Source of the DNA: a virus
Virus record (IMG/VR): IMGVR_UViG_3300042691_012604
Location: 1 to 23,314 of that record
Length of the DNA: 23,314 nucleotides
Reading direction: 5' to 3' (one strand)
Shown: in pieces, positions 4,351 through 20,625 of the stretch
How positions within the stretch are numbered: the stretch's first letter is position 1
Layout: each line of letters opens with the position of its first letter
Notes under the pieces: model-generated
The model's database searches: none
What the model was told of the DNA's origin: nothing
Seen by the model: only the letters and a program-made list of their open reading frames with translations
Translations under genes and position numbers: made by a program

Positions 4351-5850
4351 ATGGCCCGCGGCAACTCCGGTATCAGGAACCGTGGGCCATTCAACGCCCA
4401 GCGATTTGTCGCGGCGTACCTCGCGCCGGTAGTCATCGCGACGGGGTTGGGTGAGGGGACGTATACGGGGTTCGTCCCGACCGTTGCGGTCACGAACAAC
4501 ATCGCGGTCGCCACCGAGACGGGGGCGGGCACCTATACAGGGCTGACGCCGACCGTCATCGCGGGGAACAACCAGAGCGCGAGCACCCAGACCGGGACGG
4601 GGACGTATACCGGCTTCGTGCCGACGTTGACCATCGAGGTCGATGTCGCGACGCAGACCGGGACGGGATCGTACACGGGCCTCGCGCCCACGCTGGTCAC
4701 CCCGGTCGCCGTCCCCACGAGTACGGGGCAGGGCACCTATACCGGATTTGCGCCCGCGCTGTCGCTCCCGGTGGTCGCCTCGAGCCAGACGGGGACGGGC
4801 AGTTACACGGGCTTCGCGCCCACGATTACCGCCTCGGCCAGCGTGGCCACGCAGACGGGGACCGGCACCTACACCGGGCAAGCCCCCGCGGTGGTCACGA
4901 CGGCGAACCAGTTTGTCGCCACGGCCACGGGTCTGGGGACGTACACGGGCTTCGCGCCGAGCTTGGCCGAGCCGATTACCGTCACGACCGCGCTGGGGCA
5001 GGGCACCTATACGGGCCAGTCTCCCGCGGTGGTGGTCGGCAACGCGGTCATCGTCCAGCCGGGGACGGGGGCCGGGAGCTATACGGGGTTCGCGCCGACC
5101 ATCTTCTCGACGGTGGTCGTCTCGACGCAGACGGGGCAGGTCACGGCGACGGGCTTCGCCCCCGCGGCGATCGATGGGGTCCGGGCGGCGACCCAGACGG
5201 GGACCGGGACGTACACGGGGCTGGCTCCCGTTATCGCCACGACCGCGGTCACCCAGACCGGGCAGGCCACGCTCACGGGGTATGCGCCGACCATCGTCAC
5301 GGGGGGCGCGGTCACGGTCCTGCCGGGGGTCGGGACGGGCACCTATACCGGACAGGCCCCCACCCTGCGCGAGGCCGTCAGGGTCCAGCCTGGCGTCGGC
5401 GCGGGGCTGTATACGGGGCAGACGCCCGCGGTGGTGGTCTCGGCCAACGTGGCGGTGGCGACCGGGGTGGGGGCTGGGACGTACACCGGGTTCGCGCCGG
5501 TGGTCCGGCTGCCGAAGGTGGCGGCCACGCAGACCGGGCAGGGGACGTATGCCGGGCTGGCTCCCGCGGTGGTGCTGGGCACGGTCATCCGTCCGGGGGT
5601 CGGGGCGGGGACGTACACGGGCTTCCGGCCCTCGATTGCTATTGCGCCGGTGGTCTTTGTGCGGGCGACGGGGCGCGACTTGTCCGCCCCGTATGGGCTG
5701 GTTGAGGATCGCTCGGGCGCGGAGGTCTGGGCGGTGGACGAGGGCGGGGTGGCGCGGCGGGTGCTTGAGGAGTCCGGGCCGCAGGTCGTGGCGCGGGACC
5801 GAGGCGCGAATGAGGTCACCGTGCTAGATTCTTCACAGGGACTAGTCTAG
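4351..5850 (+). CDS. Tandem-repeat protein with 18 TGxGTYTGFAPT units, probable virion fibre/decoration protein
   Basis: 499 residues in three parts. Residues 1-30 form a basic, non-repetitive head (MARGNSGIRNRGPFNAQRF). Residues ~31-437 hold 18 tandem units of 21-25 residues with core T.TGTGTYTGFAPTV followed by a variable hydrophobic segment. Residues ~438-499 are a non-repetitive, charged C-terminal domain (GLVEDRSGAEVWAVDEGGVA). Strongly conserved are Gly, Tyr (Leu/Ala in a few units), Thr-Gly, Phe/Leu/Gln and Pro. Such a period fits a beta-solenoid or stacked beta-hairpin fibre, but I know no named family with this consensus; similar Gly-Thr repeats occur in phage tail-region proteins. 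No Cys, signal peptide or membrane segment is seen. Its position between the LamG gene and the tail-completion genes suggests a virion surface role. The gene call is secure, the function inferred. Confidence 0.72.
   Translation: MARGNSGIRNRGPFNAQRFVAAYLAPVVIATGLGEGTYTGFVPTVAVTNNIAVATETGAGTYTGLTPTVIAGNNQSASTQTGTGTYTGFVPTLTIEVDVATQTGTGSYTGLAPTLVTPVAVPTSTGQGTYTGFAPALSLPVVASSQTGTGSYTGFAPTITASASVATQTGTGTYTGQAPAVVTTANQFVATATGLGTYTGFAPSLAEPITVTTALGQGTYTGQSPAVVVGNAVIVQPGTGAGSYTGFAPTIFSTVVVSTQTGQVTATGFAPAAIDGVRAATQTGTGTYTGLAPVIATTAVTQTGQATLTGYAPTIVTGGAVTVLPGVGTGTYTGQAPTLREAVRVQPGVGAGLYTGQTPAVVVSANVAVATGVGAGTYTGFAPVVRLPKVAATQTGQGTYAGLAPAVVLGTVIRPGVGAGTYTGFRPSIAIAPVVFVRATGRDLSAPYGLVEDRSGAEVWAVDEGGVARRVLEESGPQVVARDRGANEVTVLDSSQGLV
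4441..5661 (+). repeat. Degenerate 63-75 bp in-frame tandem repeat array (18 units)
   Basis: DNA-level counterpart of the protein repeats. Each unit carries a variant of ACGGGGACNGGNACNTAYACNGG. Unit length varies by whole codons and third positions differ widely, so selection acts on the protein. Units 11 and 13 diverge most (QTGQVTATGFAP and QTGQATLTGYAP). Boundaries are approximate. Confidence 0.8.
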
Positions 5851-18649: not shown

Positions 18650-18812
18650 GGCTTTACTTTTGGTGAGCGCGGTGTAGGTTATGGCTTGCGGTGTCGGGAA
18701 CCACCGCAACGAAGTAAAAACCGATTGGCCCCCGTACTTCTACGCCAAAGCCCCTTGACCGGGTGCGATGGGTTCCCCGTAGAAGGCGGGGGCCGCTCGT
18801 TTAGGTGGCGCG
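18650..18812 (+). promoter_or_regulatory. Non-coding, hairpin-rich leader / regulatory region
   Basis: The only substantial intergenic gap. Outer complementary arms are TTTACTT (18653-18659) and AAGTAAA (18712-18718). Between them is a perfect 8-bp hairpin, TTGCGGTG (18686-18693) with CACCGCAA (18702-18709). A long interrupted hairpin follows, 18727-18744 with 18778-18794: two 8-bp helices around a 2x1 internal loop, 33-nt apical loop. A weak promoter-like pair lies at 18653 (TTTACT) and 18675 (TAGGTT), spacing 16. No tRNA or terminator U-run is seen. SD-like AGGTGG precedes the ATG at 18813. Confidence 0.6.
18681..18758 (+). CDS. Possible 25-codon leader ORF
   Basis: ATG at 18681 to TGA at 18756-18758 encodes MACGVGNHRNEVKTDW then PPYFYAKAP. 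It reads through the 8-bp hairpin and the whole upstream arm of the long hairpin, and stops in the loop. No strong SD precedes it (GTAGG 3 bp away). It could be a regulatory leader peptide, a tiny real protein, or chance. Confidence 0.2.
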   Translation: MACGVGNHRNEVKTDWPPYFYAKAP

Positions 18813-19427
18813 ATGCATTGGATTAGAGTGGCGGTCACGATCGGGGACGATCCCGACATCTACACGCTGGCGCATCACCTCGGCATACGACCTGCGGAAG
18901 CAGTCGGCCTGCTGGTGATGACGTTGGCAAAGTTCCCGGCACACGCGCCGGACGGCAACCTCAAAGACATCCCGGACGCCCTGATTGAGCGATGGGCGGG
19001 ATGGGCTGGCGAGCCTGGCGAGTACGCCGGACTTCTCCGGGCGTTATTCCTGAACGGGTCTGGCGTCTGGGAATCGTGGGAGCGGCATAACGGCCAACCG
19101 CTGCGGGAGGCCGAGGCCAGCCGGGAACGTGCCCGAAAGTATCGTGAACAGAAACTAAACACCGAGGCGAGTACGGCGAACGGTACGGCGAACGGTACGG
19201 CGAACGAACGCGAACGGTTCGCGTTCGGTACGGGTCTACGTACGAACGTACGAACGAACCAAACAACTAGGGGTGCTACGCACAGGAATGTGGAAAACTA
19301 CGCACCCGGTCACGTCAACCTGATGCCGACGAAGTTCTGCGCGGAATGTGGGGACGGGGTGCTGGCCGAGGTTGCGGGGTCGAAGCGTCCGGTCCAAACT
19401 CACGCGCCGGGGTGCGGGAATGCTTGA
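18813..19427 (+). CDS. Replication initiator / replisome organiser-like protein
   Basis: 204 residues; ATG 18813 has AGGTGG just upstream. The N-terminal ~95 residues (MHWIRVAVTIGDDPDIYTLA, VGLLVMTLAKFPAHAPDGNL, a helix ALIERWAGWAG, LLRALFLNGSGVW) follow the winged-helix pattern of phage replisome organisers and DnaD/DnaT-like proteins. There a short strand/helix head is followed by a dG-turn and helices. A charged helix (REAEASRERARKYREQKLNT) precedes a low-complexity linker with TANG repeats. At the end is a Cys/His motif (KFCAECGDG ... THAPGCGNA) that may bind zinc. The linker DNA is a candidate origin, as in phages where the origin lies inside the initiator gene. The call rests on pattern and context. 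Confidence 0.58.
   Translation: MHWIRVAVTIGDDPDIYTLAHHLGIRPAEAVGLLVMTLAKFPAHAPDGNLKDIPDALIERWAGWAGEPGEYAGLLRALFLNGSGVWESWERHNGQPLREAEASRERARKYREQKLNTEASTANGTANGTANERERFAFGTGLRTNVRTNQTTRGATHRNVENYAPGHVNLMPTKFCAECGDGVLAEVAGSKRPVQTHAPGCGNA
19171..19300 (+). other. Candidate phage replication origin (iterons, palindrome, DnaA-like box)
   Basis: Three head-to-tail 12-bp repeats GTACGGCGAACG (19171-19206) are followed by a perfect palindrome with 11-bp arms (19205-19215 and 19217-19227). Next are tandem CGTACGAA copies (19239-19254) and an A-rich stretch (19260-19270). TGTGGAAAA (19289-19297) is one mismatch from the reverse complement of the DnaA box TTATCCACA. The cluster lies inside the initiator-like gene, as in lambdoid phages. 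Confidence 0.5.
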
Positions 19428-19446
19428 CACTAACCAAGGGAGACCG

Positions 19447-20625
19447 ATGGACCTGACGTACCTCGAACTCTTCGCCGGGGCTGGGGGGATGAGCCTGGGC
19501 CTTGAGACCGCGGGTTGGCGATGCGTGGCCCACGCCGAAATCGAGCCCCACGCCCGCGCCGTGTTGCGCCACCGCTGGCCGGACGTGCCGCTGTATGGCG
19601 ATGTCGCCGAGCTTGACGGCACCCAGTTCCGCGGCGTCACGATGGTCACCGGCGGGTCGCCGTGTCAGGACTTGTCGATTGCCGGAAAGCGGGCCGGGAT
19701 GACCGAAGGATCGGGCACCCGTTCGTCGCTGTTCTTTGAGCAGGTCCGCATCTGGAACGAATCACAAGCCCCCTACATCCTCTGGGAAAATGTCTATGGA
19801 GCCTTCAGTAGCAATGCCGGACGGGATTTTTCCGCCGTCCTATCAGCCCTCGTGGGAGGAGCCGTCCCTGTTCCCGCGGACGGATGGGTCCGTGCAGGTG
19901 TGGTTGCAGGACCGACCGGAGTCGCCGCGTGGCGCACATTGGATGCTCAATACTTCGGGGTGCCACAGCGCCGCCGCCGTGTCTTTGTCCTCGGTGTTAG
20001 AGGCGGAGGGGTCGATCCCGCCGAAATACTATCTCTCGCCGAAAGCCTGTCAGGGCATCTTGCGACGAGCGGAGAAGCGCGGGAAGGCGTTGCCGCCGAT
20101 GCTGGAGCAGGCGCTGCGGTCACGTTCGACGCCCGAGGCAACGGCGACGTTGTGAACACGATGGCAGGCGACCACCAGAACCGCGTGACGGATTACACGG
20201 CCATCGTGCTCCGCAACCGCGAGGGCAAGCCCGGCGGCGGCAAGGGGCCGCTCCTCTCTGCCGAGCGTTCGTTGACGCTCGGCACAAGCAACGACCAGGT
20301 GGTGTTTGCAATGGCCAGCGGTCAAGCGAACGCCGAGACCGCAAAGGACATCTCGCCCTCGTTGACGGGACTGCACGAACAACCTATCGCGTTCAGACGG
20401 GCTGGCGTCCCCCGTCGCCTGACCCCGGTGGAATGTGAGCGACTGATGGGCTGGCCGGACCAGCATACCGCCCACGGCATCAGCGAGGCAGGCAAGCCCT
20501 ATGCGCTCGCGGACACCGCCCGCTACAAGCTCTGCGGCAACGGCATCGCCAGCCCGGTGACGGCGTGGATTGGGTTCCAGTTGCGCCACTACTTGACAAG
20601 CGGCAAGCCGTTCCCTATCCTGTAG
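19447..20625 (+). CDS. DNA (cytosine-5) methyltransferase
   Basis: 392 residues from ATG 19447, which has a GGGAG SD; an in-frame ATG at 19420 adds nine residues and is possible. C5-methyltransferase motifs appear in order: I LELFAGAGGMSLGLETAGW (SAM binding), IV GGSPCQDLSIAGKRAG with the catalytic Cys (~73), VI WENVYG (~114), VIII QYFGVPQRRRRVFVLG (~173), target-recognition region ~190-320, IX RRLTPVECERLMGWP and X GNGIASPVTAWIG (~364). Full length, so likely active. In phages such enzymes usually protect the genome from host restriction. Part of the gene is poorer in GC (around 19730-19830), suggesting recent transfer. Confidence 0.9.
   Translation: MDLTYLELFAGAGGMSLGLETAGWRCVAHAEIEPHARAVLRHRWPDVPLYGDVAELDGTQFRGVTMVTGGSPCQDLSIAGKRAGMTEGSGTRSSLFFEQVRIWNESQAPYILWENVYGAFSSNAGRDFSAVLSALVGGAVPVPADGWVRAGVVAGPTGVAAWRTLDAQYFGVPQRRRRVFVLGVRGGGVDPAEILSLAESLSGHLATSGEAREGVAADAGAGAAVTFDARGNGDVVNTMAGDHQNRVTDYTAIVLRNREGKPGGGKGPLLSAERSLTLGTSNDQVVFAMASGQANAETAKDISPSLTGLHEQPIAFRRAGVPRRLTPVECERLMGWPDQHTAHGISEAGKPYALADTARYKLCGNGIASPVTAWIGFQLRHYLTSGKPFPIL
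20593..20621 (+). promoter_or_regulatory. Sigma70-like promoter candidate
   Basis: A consensus -35 box TTGACA (20593-20598), a 17-bp spacer and TATCCT (20616-20621, 4 of 6 matches) lie at the end of the methyltransferase gene, 35 bp upstream of the next start. A transcript beginning near 20628 would include the 20635 leader element and drive 20657 onward. Confidence 0.5.

Follow-up and report, generated by a model that had tools for sequence, protein, structure and literature searches.

A candidate replication origin inside the gene of its own putative initiator in a viral DNA fragment

Introduction

Do the repeats clustered within the coding sequence of a replication initiator-like gene form the DNA site at which its product would act, or are they a by-product of the peptide that they encode? 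The question is raised by a virus record of 23,314 bp, hereafter the window, i.e. the whole stretch of DNA that was analysed. The original prediction, made from the letters alone, had proposed an origin of replication embedded in this gene as in lambdoid phages, and had granted that the in-frame repeats, encoding the peptide TANG, could reflect a protein linker.

The initiator gene and its surroundings

The gene at issue encodes a protein of 204 aa (hereafter the 18813 protein).

18813-19427, plus strand: initiator gene, with an N-terminal domain (aa 1 to about 121), a linker (aa 127-172) and a small C-terminal domain

Residues 1-135 match PHROG 9474 (E=2.4e-18 in a profile search and E=2.3e-20 in the genome search) as well as PHROG 2509 (E=9.4e-9), both annotated as 'replication initiation protein'. 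The match to PHROG 9474 stops at profile position 141, leaving the C-terminal profile part (142-288) unmatched and, judged from these alignments, the protein is kin to this family via its N-terminal domain only; the small C-terminal domain exhibits a CxxC...HxxxC pattern. No family was matched in NCBIfam, nor in Pfam at E<=0.1, the families O and Phage_rep_org_N included. In an AlphaFold2 model built from a 40-sequence alignment, the N-terminal domain is confidently predicted as helical (pLDDT of about 89 or more over aa 11-80), with a long helix running up to residue 121, followed by a linker predicted to be disordered (pLDDT <50 over aa 127-172) and by a small C-terminal element. Among the viral models of BFVD, a fold search with this model retrieved proteins called Primosomal protein 1 and Replisome organizer; for the N-terminal domain, PDB searches, whether by fold or by sequence profile, gave no usable solved structure. 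A winged-helix N-terminal domain would follow only from analogy with other initiators and is not claimed as demonstrated.

Regarding the surroundings of the gene, the segment just upstream (18660-18812) is near-identical in the closest relative, L003, and is predicted to form a strong, extended hairpin (-68.7 kcal/mol, z -2.4); in another relative, L004, a different GC-rich hairpin followed by TTCTTTTTC occupies this place. Such an element may be a terminator or part of a leader. A promoter/terminator scan found nothing and no RNA family of Rfam was found in the window. Directly downstream (19444-20625) lies a C-5 cytosine methyltransferase gene, and a cytosine methylase also adjoins the initiators of phage epsilon15, Vibrio phage 1.211 and Salmonella phages 65FD/66FD; the CpG-rich iterons described below could conceivably be methylated. 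Neither a helicase gene nor a loader gene was recognized next to the window copy of the initiator. Elsewhere in the window, a 66-bp tandem repeat (3.4 copies, 4654-4879) lies in ORF 4351-5850, which encodes a protein without known function.

Repeat elements within the coding sequence

The repeats run from codon 120, where the iterons start, to codon 149, where the short tract ends, and thus fall mostly within the part of the protein predicted to be disordered. The elements are as follows.

19171-19182, 19183-19194 and 19195-19206, plus strand: three tandem exact 12-bp iterons, GTACGGCGAACG
19205-19227: palindrome CGAACGCGAAC-G-GTTCGCGTTCG, with perfect 11-nt arms and a 1-nt spacer, made of inverted iteron half-sites
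19223-19232: GTTCGGTACG, an inverted GAAC adjoining a further GTACG, the TRF array reaching 19233
19238-19259, plus strand: short-repeat tract ACGTACGAACGTACGAACGAAC, period 8/4, proposed as DNA-opening or single-strand-binding element
19257-19273, plus strand: A-rich AACCAAACAACTAGGGG flanking the short tract and containing the A-rich CCAAACAACTA (19259-19269)
19289-19297, minus strand: DnaA box TGTGGAAAA with one mismatch, weak and not conserved

The first four elements invoked by the original prediction are all found in the sequence, namely the three exact 12-bp repeats, the perfect palindrome, which is the sole one in the window with arms of at least 11 nt, the two 8-bp repeats (ACGTACGA, twice at 19238-19253) and the A-rich run (19259-19269). 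The word CGAACGGT is present in the window only at the iterons (19171-19206). As for duplex stability, the 30-bp stretch starting at 19240 stands at the 99.1 percentile of the window for low stability; the possible counterpart of the AT-rich unwinding region of lambda is the low-stability stretch 19240-19300, which reaches the 99th percentile of the window, yet less stable stretches exist there.

Repeats against chance and coding expectation

Among all 130-bp windows of the 23,314-bp stretch, the repeat region is the top repeat locus. With a simple tandem measure, the 12-bp tandem scores 24, against a maximum of 15 over all simulated windows matched in composition, and palindromes of this class number one in the window against 0.05 expected from Markov simulations.

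The repeats could nonetheless be by-products of slippage within an unconstrained disordered linker (TANG) and have no role as DNA. The 12-mers do lie in frame, as the original prediction had pointed out, and the linker is indeed predicted to be disordered. On the other side, resampling of synonymous codons, drawn from the codon usage of each gene itself, yields 3.6 repeated 8-mers in the linker where 26 are present (0/5000 resamples), and CGAACG falls in each of the three frames within the gene, so a peptide repeat cannot explain that word. Comparison with L003 provides a modest signal of synonymous constraint in the window itself, with 3/36 synonymous changes in the linker against 26/111 before it (Fisher p=0.035, with boundaries chosen after the repeats had been seen).

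Near relatives keep the place but not the letters

Close homologues were found on two viral contigs, L003 (95% identity) and L004 (62%, best segment), and more distant ones in L011, L015, L016, L018, L019 and the complete phage MW202627; a scan of genome contigs returned no relatives and a plasmid collection only two matches. L003, L004, L011, L015, L016, L018 and L019 all carry an array of period 11-12 bp and then a short tandem tract, located alike within the gene, but the repeat letters differ between these near relatives.

L004: period 11, CGACCGTCGCG, and (ACGG)5
L011: GTACCCGGTACG three times and (ACGAG)n
L015: period 11 and (AGACG)4
L016: period 11, GGAATTCCGCA, and (AGACG)4
L018: CGTTCGGCGAA and (ACGT)4
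L019: GTACGCCGAACG and (ACGG)5

Counterparts of the 19238-19259 tract among relatives read (ACGG)5, (AGACG)4, (ACGT)4 or (AGAGA)n. The spacing from the iteron array to the short tract ranges from 2 to 58 nt among the near relatives, most of which carry a AACTACTAG-like motif past the short tract. The repeats of L005 are only weak; MW202627 exhibits only a weak period-11 pair, yet it has there the best non-triplet tandem tract genome-wide. Periods of 11, 5 or 4 bp, frequent in these relatives, are not explained by peptide repeats, and a constant order of iterons then short tract would not be expected from neutral slippage.

From about 19290 to the end of the gene (19427), the window and L004 are almost identical, the N-terminal part being far more diverged. 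By sequence comparison, the CxxC...HxxxC C-terminal module seems to have been exchanged where the repeats end. The repeats could then be a recombination hot spot, or a module boundary, marking the joint where C-terminal modules are swapped, in line with this near-identity next to unrelated linkers in proteins about 62-66% identical overall, and with the variation of C-terminal domains across the family. Such a module boundary accounts for a joint but not for the layout of iterons and short tract or for the synonymous constraint, and it may be a consequence of an origin rather than an alternative to it; as the primary explanation of the repeats, it is deemed very improbable.

The layout across the initiator family

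The family-wide comparison encompassed 74 non-redundant initiator genes, i.e. the near group and two sister groups from viral contigs, except for L005, L006 and L008, which come from annotated phage records; many of these 74, and of the 17 sequences of the diversity test below, are related, and the counts do not stand for independent events. For 61/74 genes, linker codons 95-180 contain the best non-triplet tandem tract of the locus (about 4.5 kb). Likewise, 61/74 genes exceed synonymous resampling at p<=0.05 and 13/74 do not pass. A non-triplet tandem score of at least 11 is reached by 56/74 initiator linkers (76%) against 0.4% of 1428 control windows, which are flanks of the same loci and not other linkers. 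Taken alone, this last comparison would be compatible with disordered linkers in general tending to carry such repeats, a possibility covered by the synonymous test and by the argument from reading frames.

The better-sampled sister subfamily, which resembles PHROG 2509, carries a strong sign of selection on DNA. The word GTAACG/CGTTAC occurs on both strands at 7.6/kb in the gene against 0.40/kb in the flanks (about 19-fold), forming one cluster at codons 40-70 and another at codons 100-140. Where most blocks stand at about 0.3, synonymous diversity in 17 members of equal length is down to 0.057 and 0.012 (codons 121-140) and to 0.13-0.16 (codons 51-70). The last iteron lies at most 6 nt from the (AGAGA)n tract in 42/45 genes with an upstream iteron. 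Among L020-L099, the cluster at codons 40-70 lies inside the region encoding the N-terminal domain, with lowered synonymous diversity, and from these two clusters the origin in this subfamily may be bipartite; period-11 arrays are also present at codons 40-70 in L063/L070/L071. In phage epsilon15, the (AGAGA)n tract is kept and the word GCGGAC/GTCCGC replaces GTAACG. VW-6S and CP2, both complete genomes, have their best non-triplet tandem tract genome-wide in the initiator, and the gene of VW-6S is flanked by the CI/Cro/CII region and by replication protein P, i.e. located at the position of lambda O.

Selection at the DNA level on these coding repeats, as gauged by synonymous sites, thus appears strong in the sister subfamily and modest for the pair formed by the window and L003. 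A synonymous diversity close to zero at the repeats, as well as two clusters in which one word also occurs inverted, are not accounted for by a neutral linker in that subfamily and, together with the excess over resampling, make a purely protein-level or neutral origin of the repeats decidedly unlikely. In this respect, the linker caveat of the original prediction holds for the frame of the 12-mers and mostly fails as an explanation.

DnaA box and GC skew

The near-consensus DnaA box of the original prediction does exist at 19289-19297 with one mismatch; its role as a core origin element is not borne out. Four such one-mismatch sites occur in the 23.3 kb, which puts the box at 19289 close to chance, and its counterpart in L004 reads TGTGGGAAA, so that the box is lost. 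A host DnaA-dependent origin with this box as key element could appeal to its location, about 30 nt past the tract, and to perfect boxes at similar spacing past the short tract, that of the L019 linker being 29 nt away and that of phage epsilon15 (L182:1947-1955) a short distance away. Across the family, DnaA boxes downstream of the short tract are found at 3/73 loci against about one expected, i.e. no enrichment and, considering also the loss in L004, such an origin is hardly credible. GC skew, proposed in cumulative form over the full genome as a check of the prediction, was uninformative, with no extremum convincingly marking the gene either in the window, because it is a 23-kb fragment, or in three complete phage genomes.

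A probable origin hidden in linker codons

The best-supported reading is the one originally put forward, and positions 19171-19273 are very probably, as far as comparative sequence analysis can tell, a cis-acting replication origin inside the gene of its own initiator. It is favoured because the relatives keep the architecture in place while the sequence changes, often at non-triplet periods, to which the near-invariant synonymous sites of the sister subfamily are added. If the protein acts as lambda O and SPP1 gp38 do, its N-terminal domain would bind the 12-bp iterons and the palindrome to form a nucleoprotein complex; the adjacent, less stable short-repeat tract would then open, or take up the initiator as single strand, and helicase would be loaded at the opened tract. 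On this model, the tract is likely an opening or single-strand-binding element. Since the linker is predicted to be disordered, its codons would be free to carry such DNA signals.

Binding by the initiator could nonetheless serve mainly another purpose, the repeats being an autoregulatory operator or a plasmid-type copy-control site and the true origin lying elsewhere. Autoregulation is common among iteron-binding initiators, and the segment 18660-18812 upstream of the gene is also conserved and structured. The site is located mid-gene, far from the gene start, and an unstable tract of short repeats suits opening more than repression; this explanation is regarded as unlikely.

Beyond this single locus, the origin reading, if true, would make the origins of a large phage group, uncultured members included, readable from sequence, would explain odd charged peptide repeats in replication proteins and would point to joint evolution and transfer of initiator and origin as a single cassette. 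It would also pose the question of strand opening, that is, whether the initiator touches the 4-6 bp repeats in single-stranded form, as with DnaA-trios. More tentatively, and with somewhat less than even confidence, a widespread class of phage origins could be envisaged, constructed like a bacterial unwinding system around an unrelated initiator, whose N-terminal domain would load on lineage-specific iterons and whose protomers would read a 4-6 bp tandem tract as single strand, both elements being hidden in linker codons. If so, charged repeats such as EKRRE, DETRR and TDGR in phage replication proteins would be the coding shadow of an origin and could be used for finding origins from sequence alone.

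Comparison with known systems

The Rac prophage of E. coli K-12 carries a known active origin, oriJ. Rac was dropped as a test case since the N-terminal domain of YdaU differs (DUF1376) and the exact position of oriJ was not found in the literature searched; in K-12 ydaU (L180:6511-6578), direct and inverted TGTTCAAACA lie in the linker, followed by an AT-rich tract of period 6.

The basal unwinding system of bacterial oriC associates DnaA-boxes and DnaA-trios (PMC8287927) and likewise places double-strand sites beside a short repeated motif on one side. It relies on DnaA and a period of 3, whereas a phage initiator and periods of 4-6 would be involved here, single-strand binding being hypothetical; the locus was not assigned to this system, as its tract periods are 4-6 or 8 rather than those of trinucleotide DnaA-trios and its DnaA boxes are unconserved.

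The nearest relatives by sequence are the PHROG 9474/2509 proteins of phages CP2, FP_Lagaffe, TL-2011b and epsilon15, with a homologous N-terminal domain and the repeat layout in most members; these have DnaT-like or longer C-terminal domains, whereas the window protein ends in the short CxxC...HxxxC domain. In the literature searched, no experimental origin data were found for this phage group and no description of a 4-6 bp tract in this initiator family, which is weak evidence as most subscription papers fell outside the search.

That origins lie within initiator genes is already known. Repeats were noted within an O-like gene of phage MD8 (PMC8508860). In SPP1, oriL lies in gene 38, encoding the replisome organizer, and comprises direct repeats bound by its own product and an unwinding element (PMC6316719). 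The present gene likewise contains direct repeats, which its product may bind by analogy; it differs by the lack of a Phage_rep_org_N match, a distant relative, P0007, giving a weak, sub-threshold hit. In lambda and Stx phages, with ori inside O, iteron changes sparing the protein abolish replication, and altering the iterons of the lambdoid P27 origin with the protein unaltered abolishes transformation (PMC7466680). The parallel drawn with lambdoid phages stands for the layout, with iterons inside the initiator coding sequence between N- and C-terminal parts and a putative easily opened tract beside them, as well as for the location of the VW-6S gene before P; it does not extend to true kinship, the 18813 protein having no O-family match in Pfam. 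Here the iterons are of 11-12 bp and, unlike the AT-rich region of lambda, the putative opening tract of the family is a 4-6 bp tandem repeat, GC-rich in this lineage. Within the literature that could be searched, what appears new is thus this two-part layout across a broad initiator family, in which the iterons are replaced by lineage and the 4-6 bp tract persists.
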